Source of the DNA: Clostridiales bacterium
GTDB taxonomy: Bacteria; Bacillota; Clostridia; Christensenellales; CAG-314
Assembly: GCA_022508375.1 (NCBI GenBank)
Contig: JAFLVJ010000003.1
Location: 124,001-188,000 of the forward strand
Direction: 5' to 3'
Length of the DNA stretch: 64,000 nt
Of this stretch, positions 337 through 27,233 are shown piece by piece (positions within the stretch are counted from its first letter, which is position 1; the number at the start of each line of letters is the position of its first letter). The translations under genes were made by a program, and so were the position numbers. Under the pieces are notes generated by a model, which saw only the letters and a list, made by a program, of their open reading frames with translations, was not told where the DNA came from and searched no databases.

Positions 337-1470
337 TTAGTCCTTTTTAGTGACAAATACACCGGGAGCAATCTCTTGCGGTTCAAAGTCATCATCAGTC
401 GCTACGTTTTCAGTAGTATTTCCCTGCAAAAAATCCGGTTCTTCATCGACTGATTTAAGCAGACGCTTGATTAGTCCCTTGTTGATAAGTTCTACAATTC
501 CTTCGTAAGGTACATAGAAATCCTCAGTAATATAATCTTCATCACGCGTCAATTCAAGCCTTTCCGTTACCATAGCAATCAAGTCGGCCGCATACTTAAC
601 TCGCCTTGCGTTCTTCATACGGTACATCATAGGTGTATCGGCATTGGCCATTACATCGGAAACATCTTCAACGTGATACTTGGTCTCTGCAAAGTCCGCG
701 GCATTTAACGGAAGATACAGACACATCGTCTTTCCACGGAAGGAAATCTTTGCTACAACTTCCTTACCTGCCCTAAACGTTTCACGCTTCCAACTTTTAC
801 GAGATTTAATCTTTTTGTAAGAAAGCAGTTCGTTCTTGAGTTCGGTGTACCATTGCTTTGTTTCGTCATCCGATTGAATGAGCCGCGCGCTAAAACTCTT
901 GTCGTAATGCATTCTTCCTTCAAAGGACTCTTCTTCGTAAACAACCGGTATGCTCACAATATGTTCTTCAACAACAGGGGTTACTACCGAAGCAACCGTT
1001 GGCTCTTCTACCGGCTGGGCTACACTTTCTTCAACAGGTTCGGCAATCGCAATTGAATAGCATGAAATCTTGTCTTGATATACTACTGTGATTGTTTTTT
1101 TGCCTGCTTCGTTCATGTCAGGCTTTACAACATAACAACCGTTTAGATTATCTTGCGATTTAATATGGTTTAGTTCCTCCTCGGTCAGCACAACGTAATC
1201 TACGATGTTTTCCGACGTAGGTTCAAGGTTATAGATTGCCTGAACGACCAAACCGTCACATTCAAACTCGTCGCCAACCGTAAATTCGCGTCGTACGCTT
1301 ACCGTATCCAATACTATACCGCTAAGCCTGCGCACCTCACTTTGTCTGCGCCTGATAAGCACAAGCAATACCGCAAATGCAAAGATTTCTATTATTACCA
1401 AGATTCCTAAAAAAACAATCAACCAATATGTTGAGTTATTAGGAGAGATTGCATTAAGTGAATCCAACAT
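337..1470 (-). CDS. Membrane protein of the SipW module, Ig-like plus conserved cytoplasmic domain
   Basis: This 377-aa protein is the last gene of locus A, 60 bp after the SipW peptidase, with a GAGGTAA ribosome site. Residues 15-39 form one membrane segment followed by RRR, so by the positive-inside rule the rest should face the cytoplasm. Residues 52-143 resemble a bacterial Ig-like (Big_3-type) domain. A Glu/Pro/Val linker follows, then a domain at about 182-305 with WYTELKNELLSY, VAKISFRGKTMCLYL and MKNARRVKYAADLI. The same domain, more divergent, is in the 255-aa protein of locus B (25072-25839), which also sits next to a SipW peptidase. I know no function for it. A role in regulating or assembling the export of SipW substrates is inference from context only. 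Confidence 0.85.
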   Translation of the reverse strand: MLDSLNAISPNNSTYWLIVFLGILVIIEIFAFAVLLVLIRRRQSEVRRLSGIVLDTVSVRREFTVGDEFECDGLVVQAIYNLEPTSENIVDYVVLTEEELNHIKSQDNLNGCYVVKPDMNEAGKKTITVVYQDKISCYSIAIAEPVEESVAQPVEEPTVASVVTPVVEEHIVSIPVVYEEESFEGRMHYDKSFSARLIQSDDETKQWYTELKNELLSYKKIKSRKSWKRETFRAGKEVVAKISFRGKTMCLYLPLNAADFAETKYHVEDVSDVMANADTPMMYRMKNARRVKYAADLIAMVTERLELTRDEDYITEDFYVPYEGIVELINKGLIKRLLKSVDEEPDFLQGNTTENVATDDDFEPQEIAPGVFVTKKD

Positions 1471-2718: not shown

Positions 2719-3555
2719 CTAAGGATTCTGCTGCTCGCTGGGAAATTGCTGTACTTGCTCGATGTCTGCACTGAAACCAAATGCAAGCTGCCAAGAGGAA
2801 CCGGCATAGCCGCTCAATGAACCCGTAGTTTCAATTTTACCGGCTTGCGCAATTTGACCAAGGATTGTATCCTCAGCGTCGTAATATTCACCACTAGAAC
2901 CCGACTTTGCTGTTCTATAAGCCCATTCCCATGAGATTTCCAGTTTTAAATCGGTAATATTGGTATTGGCGGGAAGTTCTACGGTAACAACGTTGTTTTT
3001 AGCTGTAGCAGTAATGCCGGTAGGCAAAACACCCGTTTTGTTCAATGCGGTAACAATTGCCTTAGCAAAGTCATTTGCGCCCATGGTATTGCTTTCTGCT
3101 GTTACTTCCGTTCCGTTCACCTTCCACTTTACAGGATAGTAATTGAGACCATTATTATCGGTCAAATGAATGGTTTTGAAACTGTCGCTTACTGTTATTG
3201 TAAGAACTGCATTCACTTCGCCTGAGCCGTTAAGGACAAGCTTTGCCTCACCTTTCGTACCGGGCGCAACTACATTGGCATTGGATGTGCTACTGACAAC
3301 AACGCCACCGGATTCAACTACTGTTGCGAAATTATCTTTAACCGCACCGTAGTTGGTTCCGAACATTCCGCTAGCATCAGCCGTCAACGTATAACCCCAC
3401 TTTGCAGCAGTGGCAGTCTGAGATTGAACAGTTGCCGAACTGATATACTTAGCTAAAGTAATGCCCGCTGTAGCGCCTATGGCAAGAAGCAATAGGAGCA
3501 CTATTATTGCTATACCAATACGTTTTGTATTTTTGTTGTCTTTCTTGTTTTCCAT
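2719..3555 (-). CDS. TasA/camelysin-like exported protein with SipW-type signal, locus A
   Basis: This 278-aa protein starts at the ATG at 3555, which follows GAGGAGA; an upstream GTG is less likely. The N-terminus has Lys-rich residues 1-12, a hydrophobic stretch 13-31 and ITLAKYISS at 32-40, which fits a SipW-dependent signal. The mature part begins with a TATAAKWGYTLTAD segment, a pattern I associate with TasA-like proteins, and then carries Ser/Thr/Asn-rich beta sequence with no cysteine-rich part and no LPXTG motif. As a secreted, probably fibre-forming protein it should be processed by the peptidase encoded two genes downstream. Among the locus A substrates it looks closest to TasA. Polymerisation is inference. 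Confidence 0.82.
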   Translation of the reverse strand: MENKKDNKNTKRIGIAIIVLLLLLAIGATAGITLAKYISSATVQSQTATAAKWGYTLTADASGMFGTNYGAVKDNFATVVESGGVVVSSTSNANVVAPGTKGEAKLVLNGSGEVNAVLTITVSDSFKTIHLTDNNGLNYYPVKWKVNGTEVTAESNTMGANDFAKAIVTALNKTGVLPTGITATAKNNVVTVELPANTNITDLKLEISWEWAYRTAKSGSSGEYYDAEDTILGQIAQAGKIETTGSLSGYAGSSWQLAFGFSADIEQVQQFPSEQQNP

Positions 3556-3669
3556 GATTTTTCTCCTCACTTATTCGTAATTATCTAAAAATATACATTA
3601 TTTCCTATAATTATATATTATATTACATAAATAGCATTTCGTCAACCGCCGATGCAATTGCAACGCTGT

Positions 3670-4362
3670 TTAATTCCACGATCCCGCGCCCTTCTTCCAG
3701 GCGTCCTGCCAAGCGGGAACATCGCCGCTATCCGTAGATCCGATTGCCTGAACGGTTTGCACAATGATTTCCACGTTCAGTACGTATCCTTCGGGAACAT
3801 CCGTTGCTCCACCTTCTATCAGTGCACAACTGTTTATCAAAACACCTGTTTTTTGTCCGCTTGCAACCTGACTTGTACAGTAATAATAACCGTCAACCAA
3901 CTCCCATGCTGCCGTATTGAAAGAGATGGAATAATCAGTACCTTCTATGGGCTGTCCCCAAAATACATCCACTTCTCCGTTGCACTTTGGACACTCCATT
4001 GTGCTTTCCGAATCATCTGTACCCGAGTTTTCTATACAATCCGAGCAATCCGAACAATCGCACTCAGTGGGATTTGTGCACTCGGCGCTTTTTTGCCACG
4101 TGATGATTATTGCTACACGTACGTAAACGGGATATCCCTTGTCCTCAACCCCGATAGATACGTTTTTCATTTCTTTGTTGTTGAAGTCAAGATGGAAAGA
4201 CGGATCACTTGGCTCGGCAGGTGTATAATCGTCAGCCACGTCGTTAGCATTGATTATATAATACGCAATTGTAGGCGCCGCAACTGCAACCACCGCAATC
4301 AACACTGCGATAGTGATAAGCAATGGCGCAAATCGCTTTATCATTGGTTTTTCCGATTTCAT
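3670..4362 (-). CDS. Exported SipW-type substrate with a cysteine-rich insertion
   Basis: This 230-aa protein starts at the ATG at 4362 (AAAGGA ribosome site, 9-nt spacing). Residues 11-30 are hydrophobic and end in APTIAYYI, a SipW-type signal. Between two beta segments lies an acidic, Cys-rich loop: C95, C101, C103, C106, C109, C124 and C127, with CPKC at 124-127. This could be a metal-binding knuckle or a disulfide-rich loop, which is unusual for this protein type and for a secreted protein of an anaerobe. The gene follows the 213-aa substrate gene by 25 bp and is clearly in the same operon. The function of the insertion is unknown. Confidence 0.78.
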   Translation of the reverse strand: MKSEKPMIKRFAPLLITIAVLIAVVAVAAPTIAYYIINANDVADDYTPAEPSDPSFHLDFNNKEMKNVSIGVEDKGYPVYVRVAIIITWQKSAECTNPTECDCSDCSDCIENSGTDDSESTMECPKCNGEVDVFWGQPIEGTDYSISFNTAAWELVDGYYYCTSQVASGQKTGVLINSCALIEGGATDVPEGYVLNVEIIVQTVQAIGSTDSGDVPAWQDAWKKGAGSWN

Positions 4363-4387
4363 AATACAGATTCCTTTCTTGACTTTT

Positions 4388-5029
4388 TTACAAGACATGC
4401 TGAATATATGCTTCAAATTTAAGAGAGAAAGCCCCATTTACGCTATTACGATAAAACTCGCTGACATAGATAACATCATCTTGCAAAATCGTAATTTCGT
4501 TATTGCCTACGTATGTATGCTCCTCACCCGCTTTGAAAACATAATTTTTTACATTGTTGGTTTTATCCACTATAAACTTATAAGTAGATGTTGTGTAGCC
4601 ACCGTTTTCAACGGCTTTAACAAACTCCCAATTGTCAGTCAAATCAAAATAGACTGCATCTACCTCTTCACCGTCATCATTGATGTAAGTCGGTTTGTTG
4701 TGAACCGTTATATCTATATATAGCGCGTAGCTTACTTCGGAGTTGATTTTCAACCGAATATGCGGTCCCGGGATATCTGCTCCGGGAACAACCTTCGAAT
4801 AATCAATTCCTGCAACTGCTTGTCCGTATTCCACCAGATTGAATACCTCAACTCCAACGCCTGCCACATCTGCAGAGTTATTTGAATTGTCCGAAGTAAC
4901 AAATCTGGCAAAGACTACACTAACCGACCACACGGCAAGTATTGTAATAATAAGGAGGATGCATGCCGTACGAAACAGCACACTGGCAAAAGACCGTTTA
5001 TTGATATTTATCAATTCTTCTCTGCTCAT
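4388..5029 (-). CDS. Exported SipW-type substrate, locus A
   Basis: This 213-aa protein starts at the ATG at 5029, which has a strong AAAGGAGGAG site 7-9 nt upstream; an in-frame ATG 14 codons earlier has none. A charged N-terminus is followed by a hydrophobic segment at 20-39 and VVFARFVTSD at 38-47, similar to the cleavage regions of SipW substrates. The rest is beta-rich with a PGADIPGPHIRLKI segment, as in TasA/camelysin-like proteins where a Pro-Gly turn precedes the strand. It lies 88 bp after the giant surface protein gene and 25 bp before the Cys-rich substrate. It is probably a minor or capping subunit, which is inference. Confidence 0.78.
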   Translation of the reverse strand: MSREELININKRSFASVLFRTACILLIITILAVWSVSVVFARFVTSDNSNNSADVAGVGVEVFNLVEYGQAVAGIDYSKVVPGADIPGPHIRLKINSEVSYALYIDITVHNKPTYINDDGEEVDAVYFDLTDNWEFVKAVENGGYTTSTYKFIVDKTNNVKNYVFKAGEEHTYVGNNEITILQDDVIYVSEFYRNSVNGAFSLKFEAYIQHVL

Positions 5030-5117
5030 AGCAGCACTCCTCCTTTTATTAGAATAACCGTTATATTTCAAAATATTTATCTTTTGTAATAGTGTTTTGC
5101 TTTAAGCATTATTTACG

Positions 5118-22838: not shown

Positions 22839-23429
22839 TCAGTGTTTCGTTCCGTCGGCATTGCCCTGAATTGCAAATACCGTAAGCGTGATGTAGCAAG
22901 TCATGCTCGTACTATATACGGGCGCATCCCCACTAAGCGTGACTTTTAAATCATAAGACTTTGACTGTCCGTCTATGCCCAATTCCATCCATCTGGAGGA
23001 AGGTTTCAGTATTTCATCGTCAATCGAAACTTCGAAATAACTGCCATACTCTTTGTTTTCGTTACCTTCGCTGTCAACACAGGTTATTGCGTATTCCATA
23101 CGCCACTTAACGGAAACAGCACTGTTGTTTTGAATGACAAAGTTAACGTCAAATCCCTCATACGGGGCAATATCCGAAACAATCAATAGACCGGGAGTCG
23201 TCCCATCTACTTTCCCCTTGACAAGCCATTCGTTCCTCTCAGTTGAAGTATTGAACTGATTGATATGTTCATAGTCGAAGGTTGCCAAGACGTCCAATTT
23301 GGCAGGAGAAACAACAACACTACTTGGCGCTTCGCTTGTGTACAACGCGAATGTCGCGCCTGTCACAAGCACCAAACAAAGCGCTATTGTAAGCACCGAA
23401 ACAAGTAGGTTTGTTTTCATACTGTTCAT
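22839..23429 (-). CDS. TasA/camelysin-like SipW substrate, locus B
   Basis: This 196-aa protein has an AAGGAG site 6 nt before the ATG. Its signal peptide ends GATFALYTSE at 24-33, the SipW-type pattern. A beta-sandwich sequence follows, with IAPYEGFDVNFVIQNNSAVSVKWRMEY in two parts, where a phrase like N-N-S-x-V-x-x-W/R recurs in this family. It has no anchor after the signal and no sorting motif. It lies 64 bp before the beta-helix substrate gene and 85 bp after the 259-aa substrate gene. It is probably a secreted structural subunit. Confidence 0.82.
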   Translation of the reverse strand: MNSMKTNLLVSVLTIALCLVLVTGATFALYTSEAPSSVVVSPAKLDVLATFDYEHINQFNTSTERNEWLVKGKVDGTTPGLLIVSDIAPYEGFDVNFVIQNNSAVSVKWRMEYAITCVDSEGNENKEYGSYFEVSIDDEILKPSSRWMELGIDGQSKSYDLKVTLSGDAPVYSTSMTCYITLTVFAIQGNADGTKH

Positions 23430-23514
23430 TTAAGCTCCTTAAATATCCTTTCTTGCCGCTTTCAATAACTTAAAGCAACAATTTCTTGCTATTTTGTTAA
23501 TTGCTTGTTACAAC

Positions 23515-24294
23515 TCATATACCGAATTTGCGGTCCTCAAACGTGAAAGGTAAAGCAACGTAATCTGCTAAAGCGTTTAATCCGCCCTCTGCTCCGTTCG
23601 AATCAGCAGTCGGCACACTGGGATCACCCGATGTGTTTTGCGAAACCTGTTGTTCGACAGATGCAACGATGGCACCTGAGCGGTAAACTCTTGTTGCCAA
23701 TGGATCATCGGTATATTTCATTTCGAACCTTACTCGCATTGTTTCCTGTCTTTTCGCGCCTATGTCGAACCATTTTGTGTTTACGGCAGAATTACCGTCA
23801 TCACTTTTTACGAATTGAGACACAACTTCTTTATATTCAAAGTTTTCGTCCAATTCAACATGCGTCGCAATTAAATATGAGAATACGCCTCCATGCGTAT
23901 CGTCATCGGAACCTTTTTGATCCGCCTCATCGGAAACAAACGCTACCTTCAACTGAAGTCTTGCGGGAATTGAGCCTGTGTTGCGAACTTGAATTTCCGC
24001 TACCACACTACACCCTTGCGACATATTAACTATACCGTATCCTTCATCCAAAAATGTAGCATAACCAAAAGTATAGGCCGGTTCACTGTGCGGATAATCA
24101 TTTTCTCCCGGCGATTCGTAAGCAAGATAACTCATGCCAACTACTGTGGCGGAAGCAACAATCGTTCCTGTTGTAACTTCGAGTTTACTGTCCTTTTCAT
24201 TGCTGAAAATGGCGTACGTCGTGCCTATTAACAAGCTACAGCAAAATGCCAACGTCAATACGGATACGAGTATTATTGTTGTAGTTTTTTTCAT
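23515..24294 (-). CDS. TasA/camelysin-like SipW substrate, locus B
   Basis: This 259-aa protein has residues 1-23 hydrophobic after two Lys, then GTTYAIFSNEK at 24-34, a SipW-type cleavage region. The mature part has LEVTTGTIVASATVVG and VVAEIQVRNTGSIPARLQLKV, the strand pattern seen in camelysin-like proteins, and an acidic Asp-rich loop near residue 130. The ribosome site is AGGGGTGA. It is the middle one of three small substrates in locus B and is most likely exported through Sec and cleaved by the peptidase at 25873-26607. Its exact role is unknown. Confidence 0.82.
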   Translation of the reverse strand: MKKTTTIILVSVLTLAFCCSLLIGTTYAIFSNEKDSKLEVTTGTIVASATVVGMSYLAYESPGENDYPHSEPAYTFGYATFLDEGYGIVNMSQGCSVVAEIQVRNTGSIPARLQLKVAFVSDEADQKGSDDDTHGGVFSYLIATHVELDENFEYKEVVSQFVKSDDGNSAVNTKWFDIGAKRQETMRVRFEMKYTDDPLATRVYRSGAIVASVEQQVSQNTSGDPSVPTADSNGAEGGLNALADYVALPFTFEDRKFGI

Positions 24295-24326
24295 AGTTGT
24301 TCACCCCTGTTGGGTTGATCATTATA

Positions 24327-25025
24327 CTAAATGACCTGCGTTGCGCACACTGTCATGTCAATATATACATTCTTATCTTGCGCATCGTTATTGTCTATCT
24401 TATCTTCGTCACCGTCAACGTCGGCGTTATAGTCAAGGTCGTTGACAAATGCCCATTTTACTTTAAAGGTGGCATTGGCGTCTTTGTTGACAATTCTGTC
24501 GGTGTAGGTGCTGTCGTTACCCCATTCGTAGATTCCCTGTTCAGCGTCATATATTTCGCTAAGGAAAAACGTATGTACTTGTGAGCCTACAGTAATGGTG
24601 ATTTCTATTTGTTTAGCCAGTTCTTCGTCAGTTTCGTCATCCTTACCAAGTCTAAATTGGAGGTAGTAGCCTACTGCAACGTCACCGTCATTGGTGAGCT
24701 TGAACGTTGCCGTTACACTGCAGCCGGGAGCAACCCTGTCGTCTTCGCTCAGACCGAAGATGTTAACGTTGGCGTCGGTCTCGTCTTCCGAAGTAAAGGT
24801 TACAACGCTATCGTCTGTAGTATTTTCTACGCGACCTGTTTGTGGGTTAAGCAAGCTGTTCTCAAGATGATTACGCTCAAGCGATACCTTGAGTTTACCT
24901 GCTTTGAGGTGACTTGTTACTGTTACGTCATCCGTAAATAATGCAAATGTTCCCGCAATGATGATTGCAATGCAGCAAAGCACAGTTAAGCAGGAAAGTG
25001 TAATTACTCTAACACGTTTTGACAT
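24327..25025 (-). CDS. TasA/camelysin-like SipW substrate, locus B
   Basis: This 232-aa protein has AAAGGAG before the ATG. Its signal ends in GTFALFTDD at 25-33. The mature part has HLKAGKLKVSLERNHLENSL and APGCSVTATFKLTNDGDVAVGYYL in separate strands, matching TasA/CalY-type sequences. The C-terminal part is unusually acidic (DYNADVDGDEDKIDNNDAQD), which might bind Ca2+. It is the first substrate gene after the 255-aa module protein, 46 bp downstream of it, and is probably the major fibre protein of locus B, which is inference. Confidence 0.84.
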   Translation of the reverse strand: MSKRVRVITLSCLTVLCCIAIIIAGTFALFTDDVTVTSHLKAGKLKVSLERNHLENSLLNPQTGRVENTTDDSVVTFTSEDETDANVNIFGLSEDDRVAPGCSVTATFKLTNDGDVAVGYYLQFRLGKDDETDEELAKQIEITITVGSQVHTFFLSEIYDAEQGIYEWGNDSTYTDRIVNKDANATFKVKWAFVNDLDYNADVDGDEDKIDNNDAQDKNVYIDMTVCATQVI

Positions 25026-25071: not shown

Positions 25072-25839
25072 TTAGTCTTCGTCTGTGGTTGTTGCCGCTG
25101 CCTGAGCCGCTTGACGGGCAAGTCTGCGTTTTTCTCTTTGAATACGCTTGGCTTCTTCCTTTTCTTCGCGGATTGTACGTACAGCAATGTCAATACATTC
25201 CTTAGCTGCGCCAACGTCGCTTTCCTCAAACAACTTGAAGGAGGTTGGAGCATGCTTAACGCTAAGCTTGTTTTCGGAAATAAATCTGCTGAAGGTGGTA
25301 TTTGCAATAACGAAATCGCAAATGACAGTACCTTTCTTGATACGCAAACAAATTACGCGCTTGCTGTACAGCTTGAATTCCTCGTGGCTGTTGGTAAGGG
25401 TTGATTTAATGTCGTCTATTTGATTTGCATAAGCGACAATATCATCATACCATGCCTTTTGAACGCTATCCAATAAGTTGTACTTTTGCTTGTGGGAAAG
25501 CTTCGGATCAGCCGAAAATCTTATCTGACCTTCGTACTCTTCCAGCGGGATAGCAACCACTGCCTCTTCAACAGTAATACGTTTACCGTTATACTCTTCC
25601 TGATGTTGTTCTTGAGGCTGTTCTTGCGGTTTCTCTTGAGGTTGTTGCTCTGCTACAACCGGTTGAGATTCGCGATTTGCTTCCAGTTCTTCCAACTTGG
25701 ATTCGACAATTTCGGATATTTCCTCTTCGTCAATTTCCGTATTTCTGCGCTCGCGAAGAAAATCACGTATCACAACGTAAATGGTAAAAGCGCACAACGC
25801 TACTACCAAAATCATAAAAATTATGATTGCAATGTCCAT
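25072..25839 (-). CDS. Membrane protein of the SipW module, locus B
   Basis: This 255-aa protein has one membrane segment at 3-25 followed by RDFLRERR, so its body should be cytoplasmic. A Gln/Glu/Pro-rich linker covers 55-85. A domain at about 103-222 matches the C-terminal domain of the locus A protein at 337-1470: WYDDIVAYANQI aligns with WYTELKNELLSY, and VICLRIKKGTVICDF with VAKISFRGKTMCLYL. The tail from 223 is a basic coiled coil (EEKEEAKRIQREKRRLARQ). It lacks the Ig-like domain of its partner. It sits directly after the SipW peptidase. No biochemical function is known to me. Confidence 0.82.
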   Translation of the reverse strand: MDIAIIIFMILVVALCAFTIYVVIRDFLRERRNTEIDEEEISEIVESKLEELEANRESQPVVAEQQPQEKPQEQPQEQHQEEYNGKRITVEEAVVAIPLEEYEGQIRFSADPKLSHKQKYNLLDSVQKAWYDDIVAYANQIDDIKSTLTNSHEEFKLYSKRVICLRIKKGTVICDFVIANTTFSRFISENKLSVKHAPTSFKLFEESDVGAAKECIDIAVRTIREEKEEAKRIQREKRRLARQAAQAAATTTDED

Positions 25840-25872: not shown

Positions 25873-26607
25873 TTATTTATCTTTATCGGATTGCTCCAGT
25901 TCGGAAATGCGGCGCTTTAGCGCGTTCATTTCACTTTCATTTTCGATGGCTTGCTGCTCCAGCTTTTTGGCGTTGACAGCGTTGACAATCTTGATTACGT
26001 TCCAAATGATGATTATCGAACAGGGAACGATAATAACCAACGCAATACCAATGGGTTGTTTGAGCGAATATGCAATCCAACCCAAAACGTAACTTTTACC
26101 TGTTACTTTTCCCACAACGTAGTTAAGACTGGATTCGTTGCCTGTATCTATTGTCTGAACGCCGGTTGCACCGCTACTTGACAAGTTATCCCCACGTAGC
26201 GTGATGACGTAACCGCTTGTATCTTTCTGCTTAATGTCAATGATACGGTGCGTGATTGTCTCCTGTCTGGACCCGATTAGGTAACGGAAGGTGAGCACGT
26301 CGCCTACTTTTAAATCGGAGTAAAACTCCTCGGCCTTGTTTTCATCGTCAGGTACAGTCTTGATAAATACCATACTGCCTGTTTTGAGGCTTTTTATCTT
26401 GTAGTCGGATACGTCAACGTCGGGATGCGCTTCCATTGAGCCGGTAAGCACAATTCGCATTTGATAGCCGAACATGTTTACCGCCCCGTCCGTGTCGCGT
26501 TTACCGGCAATGGTAAACACCAACAGCAACAGGCATAGCGCGCAAAACAGATATATTATAATGTTAACCGCGACGGATACAACTTTGGTAAGTTTTGCTT
26601 TCTTCAT
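25873..26607 (-). CDS. sipW: SipW-type (ER-type) signal peptidase I, locus B
   Basis: This 244-aa membrane peptidase of family S26B has Ser57 in LTGSMEA, His120 in ITHRII (not Lys) and Asp140 in LRGDNL. Membrane segments are at about 11-34 and 178-202. The C-terminus carries a coiled coil (KKLEQQAIENESEMNALKR) not present in the locus A enzyme. It follows the anchored beta protein by 9 bp and precedes the 255-aa protein by 33 bp. It should process the four SipW-type proteins encoded from 19637 to 25025. The two peptidases differ enough that each may be matched to its own substrates. Confidence 0.93.
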   Translation of the reverse strand: MKKAKLTKVVSVAVNIIIYLFCALCLLLLVFTIAGKRDTDGAVNMFGYQMRIVLTGSMEAHPDVDVSDYKIKSLKTGSMVFIKTVPDDENKAEEFYSDLKVGDVLTFRYLIGSRQETITHRIIDIKQKDTSGYVITLRGDNLSSSGATGVQTIDTGNESSLNYVVGKVTGKSYVLGWIAYSLKQPIGIALVIIVPCSIIIIWNVIKIVNAVNAKKLEQQAIENESEMNALKRRISELEQSDKDK

Positions 26608-26616
26608 CTCGGGTGA

Positions 26617-27105
26617 TTAGTTTTTGTCTCCTGAAAGATTGATAACGAAGTCGGCGGTAGCATTTTGCGCTTCGTTACCGACAGTCAACGGAATGGAATA
26701 TATCAACTTGAGCGTAGTAGCTTGCTTTGGCAACACCTTGATATTTAATGTAACGATATTTCCCTTCAATAGATAAGCCAAATCGTATTCGTCGCTCTTG
26801 TCGCCATATACGAAGGTAACTTTTACCGAATCTTTAAGCGCACCGTCGTTAAGCTCGACAAATTGAAATTTCAATGTGTAGTTGCCTGAAGACTGACCTT
26901 TAAAGTTCAAGGTGTACTCGCGGGAGTCGCCGGGAATCAATCCGTTAGCGGAAGTTTCAAGCGTCTCTTGCGTGACGTCAGTATCGCTGAGCGTAACGTC
27001 TTTGACCAGTTCACTGTTTGGCGAGCTGACAGTTAGCGCCAATAGTACAACTCCGAAAAGCAAAAGCGCTACAGCTGCAATTGGTAAAAAAATTTTTAGT
27101 TTCAC
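26617..27105 (-). CDS. Membrane-anchored beta-rich protein, first gene of locus B
   Basis: The start is the GTG at 27105 with GAGGAGG 8 nt upstream, giving 162 aa. An upstream TTG at 27150 has no ribosome site. Residues 5-25 form a membrane anchor without an obvious A-x-A-Y cleavage motif. The exterior part has LIPGDSREYTLNF and GNYTLKFQFVELNDG, a beta-sandwich-like pattern. It occupies the same place before the SipW peptidase as the 183-aa protein of locus A. It may be the base or anchor of the exported structure, by position only. The Ser/Thr/Asn-rich C-terminus ends INLSGDKN. Confidence 0.75.
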   Translation of the reverse strand: MKLKIFLPIAAVALLLFGVVLLALTVSSPNSELVKDVTLSDTDVTQETLETSANGLIPGDSREYTLNFKGQSSGNYTLKFQFVELNDGALKDSVKVTFVYGDKSDEYDLAYLLKGNIVTLNIKVLPKQATTLKLIYSIPLTVGNEAQNATADFVINLSGDKN

Positions 27106-27233
27106 TCGACGTTCCTCCTCAATTTTGTGACATGGGGTGAAAAAAGGCAATTTTATAGCGTTACTATAACACGACTATTGCGTGCCTATATCATAATTTG
27201 ATTTTCATCACAAATCACCATTTTACTACACAA

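Follow-up and report, generated by a model that had tools for sequence, protein, structure and literature searches.

Work on surface fibres and giant adhesins mostly looks at them from outside the cell. The signal peptidase SipW has been credited with a second function, for which Terra et al. (2012) is reportedly the primary paper. As described, the Bacillus operon consists of tapA, sipW and tasA only (PMC4551309). SipW of B. subtilis is reported to be bifunctional, the second function being regulatory (PMC4238804, PMC13082335, PMC9486643), and one of these papers reports an influence on matrix gene expression (PMC13082335). Open papers yielded no description of the domain discussed here beside or fused to SipW, and none that uses the name 'DUF5655', a Pfam family to which we return below. 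The recurring, predicted cytoplasmic module that we describe, either fused to SipW or encoded after giant surface proteins, suggests a dedicated inside partner for surface export.

The window, that is the whole stretch of 64,000 nucleotides analysed, covers bases 124001-188000 of contig 18 in a genome of 1.63 Mb and 24 contigs, with uncultured Clostridia as its closest named relatives. An earlier sequence-only reading had pointed to two proteins in it, and both open frames are present as claimed: protein A (337-1470, 377 residues), which has a ribosome-binding-like GAGG upstream and three paralogues in its own genome, and protein B (25072-25839, 255 residues), also modelled with AlphaFold. All features given below for the window lie on the minus strand. 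From N- to C-terminus A consists of a membrane helix (residues ~16-39; 1354-1425), an Ig-like, Big_3-related domain (residues ~46-145; 1036-1335), a linker, the domain shared with B (residues 188-305; 556-909) and an A-type extension PYEG...LINKGLIKR (residues 306-340; 451-555), in which P142, Y143, L149 and L154 (A-family alignment columns) are conserved. The helix is predicted from hydrophobicity and charge: RRRQSEVRR follows it, so that the positive side is the side of the shared domain. B is built from a membrane helix with a helical continuation, a linker, the shared domain (residues 104-222; 25174-25530) and a basic C-terminal helix (residues 222-250; 25090-25176), which lies within an AlphaFold helix of residues 206-252 and has R238, R239 and R242 conserved. 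The Ig-like domain proposed earlier for A is supported by a repeat 41-44% identical to repeats of two own-genome paralogues on contig C19; Pfam calls these repeats Big_3 (PF07523; best 1.5e-11) and gives no Big_3 match for A itself. For B the coiled coil that had been proposed is consistent with the helix at residues 2-56, which comprises the membrane helix and its continuation. Membrane helices were assigned by a hydrophobicity rule throughout, and gene calls in the examined loci are simple open frames.

Each protein has a SipW-type signal peptidase gene as its upstream neighbour. The one near A (1531-2100) lies 60 bases upstream and matches TIGR02228 with 82.7 bits, over the curated cut-off of 51.85. 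Directly upstream of this SipW gene is X1 (2093-2644), a single-pass protein with a predicted extracellular domain, and the operon further contains three exported proteins with signal-peptide-like N-termini (2719-3570, 3670-4437 and 4388-5071; together 2719-5071), which from their sequences are likely SipW substrates; 3670-4437 has a weak BsaA-like match (TIGR04090). The second SipW-type gene (25873-26607) lies directly upstream of B with a gap of 33 bases. It is more divergent, with 48.3 bits for TIGR02228, just below the cut-off, and 67.6 of 190 for NF046067 (1e-18); it is peptidase-like and has the operon order of its relatives. Upstream of it lies the small exported protein X2 (26617-27150), found at this place in most recovered B-type operons (phmmer matches in L145-L150), and downstream of B there are three exported proteins with TasA/CalY-like N-termini (22839-25025), in an order identical to that of a related genome (G321, L145). 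Signal-peptide-like N-termini and gene order link the exported neighbours to SipW, and their processing by it is putative. The own genome has a third SipW gene (L012 3399-3953, G000:C12), which has a large exported neighbour and comes without a domain gene.

According to the sequence-only reading, A and B have in common an uncharacterised domain at residues 182-305 and 103-222. Profiles and models indicate that one common domain is real, and the proposed boundaries are roughly correct, with the core at 188-305 in A and 104-222 in B. Pairwise similarity is weak (BLASTP E = 0.001; Smith-Waterman score 48, equalled by 6 of 1,000 shuffles), and homology is accepted because the profiles of the two families align. 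With bridging members taken out, the comparison of 101 A-type and 15 B-type sequences gives a probability of 98.0% (E 1.4e-13, 123 columns), against 0.1% for five column-shuffled controls. AlphaFold models the domain of A with a mean pLDDT of 95.3 and that of B in blocks mostly above 90, and the order of elements is identical in both: two helices, four strands, a helix, a strand and a long helix. Moreover, a single protein of the related genomes (G332:C13:14650-15276) is matched by both families. The strings by which the likeness had been described, WY....L.....Y and V....R.KG...C.Y, occur in neither protein; what the two do have in common is WY, the closing helix and a basic beta hairpin that reads RGK in A and KKG in B. 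A final basic helix, likewise proposed for both, exists in B, where it is long and C-terminal, whereas A ends in the extension mentioned above.

Relatives of A are found as the three own-genome paralogues, in 71 loci of named genomes and in 34 of the 61 related genomes, and relatives of B in 17 of the 61. The family is spread across many uncultured gut Clostridia. Relatives in Bacilli/Erysipelotrichaceae (L075-L087) carry the domain behind four N-terminal membrane helices and have other gene neighbours, which shows that the family extends beyond the clostridial order.

The domain was rightly called uncharacterised: no Pfam or NCBIfam family covers it in A or B, searches of both proteins against Pfam, NCBIfam and PHROGs gave no convincing match, and the A profile matched no PDB sequence. 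A confident match to an unrelated enzyme family was not seen either. DUF5655 and YjbR recur among the Pfam matches below threshold. For DUF5655 (PF18899) the gathering score of 24 bits is not reached, the best family member being a SipW fusion (L195) with 21.9 bits; Pfam gives no match between protein A and this family at E <= 1, and a PF18899 search of the own genome found none. Nonetheless, a profile of nine DUF5655 sequences aligns with the domain over 116 columns (hhalign 92.1%, E 6.1e-7; five shuffled controls at most 0.5%), and among the proteins retrieved with the A profile is L089, a genuine member of DUF5655 from a different family within the phylum. The sequences of YjbR/MmcQ (PF04237) give no profile signal (hhalign 0.5%), and one of 94 members matches this family in a Pfam scan (6.6e-6). 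At the structural level, YjbR and YdhG proteins head the solved structures matched by either model (2fki, 2a1v, 3h9x, 2oc6, 9t2w, 2kl4), with VIA-align Z of 7-8.8, a strength at which the tool warns that single matches can be chance, and a Foldseek probability of 0.9-1.0 at an E of 0.01-0.1. The double-wing fold is accepted because the lists of both models share their top proteins and the sequence evidence agrees. From profiles and models we conclude that the domain makes up its own family, which adopts the double-wing fold of YjbR/YdhG and has DUF5655 as a distant relative. The C-terminal part of a defence-candidate model, PDC-S18, matches the shared domain of the SipW fusion at L195 4648-6798 with 1.6e-18, so the PDC-S18 candidate family contains a DUF5655-like domain.

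Frataxins and the DNA-binding domain of phage T4 MotA rank after YjbR and YdhG. Frataxins bind iron through an acidic ridge. The presence of frataxin and CyaY among the fold matches might be taken to mean that the domain is a frataxin-like iron binder, but the A-type domain is strongly basic: 17 columns are occupied by K or R in 75% or more of the sequences, against 4 with D or E, and the median pI of the core is 9.7. The acidic ridge is therefore absent as a conserved feature, and the iron-binding reading is scarcely credible. The conserved basic residues lie in the hairpins and where the last helix begins.

As to its side of the membrane, the domain is well supported as cytoplasmic by sequence-based prediction, in agreement with the placement first proposed from charge. 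In 60 of 62 single-pass members K and R are more numerous on the domain side of the helix (mean 4.4 against 0.6). The domain also occurs in fusion with SipW itself, as one or three copies in four proteins from 4 genomes (L136/L184, L186/L195, L189/L197 and L196), always after the third and last membrane helix; given that the catalytic part is outside, a domain behind this helix is inside. In three proteins (L154, L155, L228) a large exported ectodomain is followed by a membrane helix and then the domain, and L227 is similar except for two predicted helices. In L198 the order is reversed, the domain preceding a membrane helix behind which an X1-related extracellular domain follows, and three soluble proteins without a membrane helix (L054, L120, L048) carry a uL15-like ribosomal domain. 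Total cysteine content, at 0.84% compared with 0.98% for the ectodomains of giants, is uninformative as a marker of side.

The opposite arrangement, in which the protein would be a passive structural anchor or an outer-face domain with Ig-like repeats and domain both extracellular, has in its favour the Big_3, Flg_new and Flg_new_2 repeats lying between the membrane helix and the domain. Big_3 and Flg_new repeats are usually extracellular. However, charge, the SipW fusions, the fusions of ectodomain and helix and the soluble uL15-fused members all place the domain inside, no sign of an extracellular location was seen, and we regard an outer-face position as very improbable. If the domain is inside, Big_3 and Flg_new-type repeats are inside as well, which is odd and unusual for the cytoplasm. 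The membrane-anchored Big_3 repeats (window 1036-1335 and paralogues) have a single cysteine in 26 of 41 motif hits; at the matching position of about 10 extracellular Big_3 motif hits in the same genome mostly Tyr or Thr is found, and no cysteine was seen.

The link to SipW was examined by a census of the 61 related genomes; some loci had been chosen for SipW, and for this purpose the general neighbour table is unsuitable. Among approximately 42 SipW-type genes, 14 are tied to the domain: 4 are fused to it, and the others have a domain gene as immediate neighbour (8 B-type and 2 A-type), where one of the eight B-type cases has a 251-base gap and a broken frame. Since a domain gene comes up once or twice per 1,500 genes, we estimate that about 0.1 such neighbours would be expected by chance. 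For this and the other counts, orthologues within one genus are not independent. The SipW-linked domains occupy four separate places in the domain tree, some of them with modest support. In B operons the order X2-SipW-B is kept, with exported proteins following, and in G325 (L198) an X1-like ectodomain is joined to the shared domain (phmmer 1.4e-9, BLASTP 2e-12); all three partners are thus tied by fusion or gene order. The connection to SipW peptidases that had been drawn for the domain as a whole is therefore real, and it applies to the B type, to the fusions and to two A-type cases. It does not extend to the A type generally, most of whose genes come after a membrane-anchored giant or after some other gene: in the loci examined, no A-type gene stands beside a separate SipW gene except in the window and in G325, which makes this adjacency an exception for the A type. 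Elsewhere in the order, another gene pair recurs beside SipW (L199 6403-9481, L200 6822-10836, L202 4452-7500 and L212 9730-13776); it encodes uncharacterised proteins of ~510-530 and 480-830 amino acids.

The commoner context of the domain is not SipW but a position downstream of a giant protein with a C-terminal membrane helix. Of 110 domain genes, 44 directly follow a large protein whose sole membrane helix lies near the C-terminus, while for the remaining genes of these loci the figure is 3 of 1,176 (p = 1.3e-47); by a stricter criterion the numbers are 38 of 113 against 8 of 1,176. Gaps between giant and domain gene are mostly -20 to +30 bases, and four proteins unite a giant surface part and the domain in one chain. 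Example giants contain MBG_2, DUF1542, GA, cohesin and DUF6273 domains. In the own genome, a surface protein of 2,848 amino acids that combines 28 DUF1542 repeats with a membrane helix at its C-terminus (L010 153-8699, G000:C19) is directly followed by two of the A paralogues, one with two and one with four Ig-like repeats. For about half of the domain genes in clostridial genomes the upstream gene is not giant-like; among them are SipW-linked, fused and soluble members as well as genes without an assigned partner.

This one-to-one pairing with giant exported proteins would suit a dedicated cytoplasmic chaperone or quality-control factor that takes nascent surface proteins before export, and the type III secretion chaperones SycT, Spa15, SycE and CesT are indeed among the weaker fold matches. 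These nonetheless rank under YjbR and YdhG with Z of 3-5.6, values that are common for the tool, and the exported giants are probably Sec clients, so that we hold a chaperone to be unlikely.

Further contexts were observed. A B-type gene (L152 8531-13828, G332:C13) heads an apparent type IV pilin and prepilin-peptidase operon, which is a surface-assembly context. In 11 of 94 proteins the shared domain is followed by a uL15-like (Ribosomal_L27A) domain, and some of these proteins have no membrane helix (examples of the fusion are L048 7551-8858, L054 7908-9002, L120 1102-1941 and L011 8565-10301). In L048 and L051 the upstream gene starts with MENFSVYENIATRTGGEIFIGVVGPVRTGKSTFIKKF and presumably resembles SpoIVA.

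We slightly favour the view that, in this bacterial order, surface-protein export has in this domain a cytoplasmic partner, an adaptor or regulator, tethered to the membrane. A single N-terminal membrane helix would hold the small basic domain at the cytoplasmic face. It would be encoded directly after, or fused to, a SipW that processes TasA-like fibre subunits, or alternatively after or fused to a giant surface protein anchored by its C-terminal membrane helix. There it may gather SipW or the surface protein with a cytoplasmic supply or control, such as nascent chains, message or regulators, and its conserved basic face would hold a putative anionic ligand. The placement of the domain is supported by sequence and models, and from it we infer the activity as adaptor or regulator. 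Gene order and fusion, as features of sequence, signify association and not contact. A role in sensing or assembly control rather than structure, as had been argued from the cytoplasmic location, is plausible, and a passive tether fits this location equally well.

The strongest rival, which we would call possible but doubtful, has the anionic ligand as nucleic acid: a membrane-tethered regulator would bind DNA or RNA and make the expression of surface proteins, or their local translation, depend on the export site's state. YjbR proteins and the C-terminal domain of T4 MotA have the double-wing fold, and DNA binding has been inferred for YjbR (PMC7641849), though that inference itself rests largely on structure. 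The basic positions described above, in the hairpins and the beginning of the last helix, would fit a nucleic-acid surface; they would equally suit lipids or acidic linkers, and the latter are present in the members themselves. The uL15-like ribosomal domain in 11 of 94 members, the homology to the C-terminal part of the defence candidate PDC-S18 and the reported influence of SipW on matrix gene expression (PMC13082335) also agree with such a regulator. If it existed, the SipW fusions would combine peptidase and regulator in one molecule and supply a physical module for the reported regulatory function of SipW. That such a module couples the export of fibres or giant proteins to expression or local translation seems to us rather unlikely.

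Returning to the favoured membrane-tethered partner of surface-protein export, the comparison with known systems is as follows. DUF5655 resembles the domain by profile over its whole length, but the family described here stays under the Pfam cut-off, is membrane-tethered, is often in tandem and is tied to surface export, whereas in the DUF5655 protein L089 the domain stands at the end of a soluble protein. PDC-S18 is similar in its C-terminal part, as seen with the SipW fusion. YjbR/MmcQ and YdhG/DUF1801 share the fold and provide the best solved structures for both models; in contrast, their known members are small, soluble and single-domain, and for YjbR the profile comparison gave 0.5%. Big_3 proteins have in common with the A-type proteins the repeat that here lies between membrane helix and domain, with the difference that it is predicted to be cytoplasmic and often has an unpaired cysteine, which Tyr or Thr replaces in the genome's extracellular copies. 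The tapA-sipW-tasA operon of B. subtilis likewise has a SipW-type peptidase beside exported fibre-like proteins. It contains no such domain gene, whereas here the domain is added on the cytoplasmic side of SipW as a neighbour or by fusion, and this module renders the reported second function of SipW testable via one domain.
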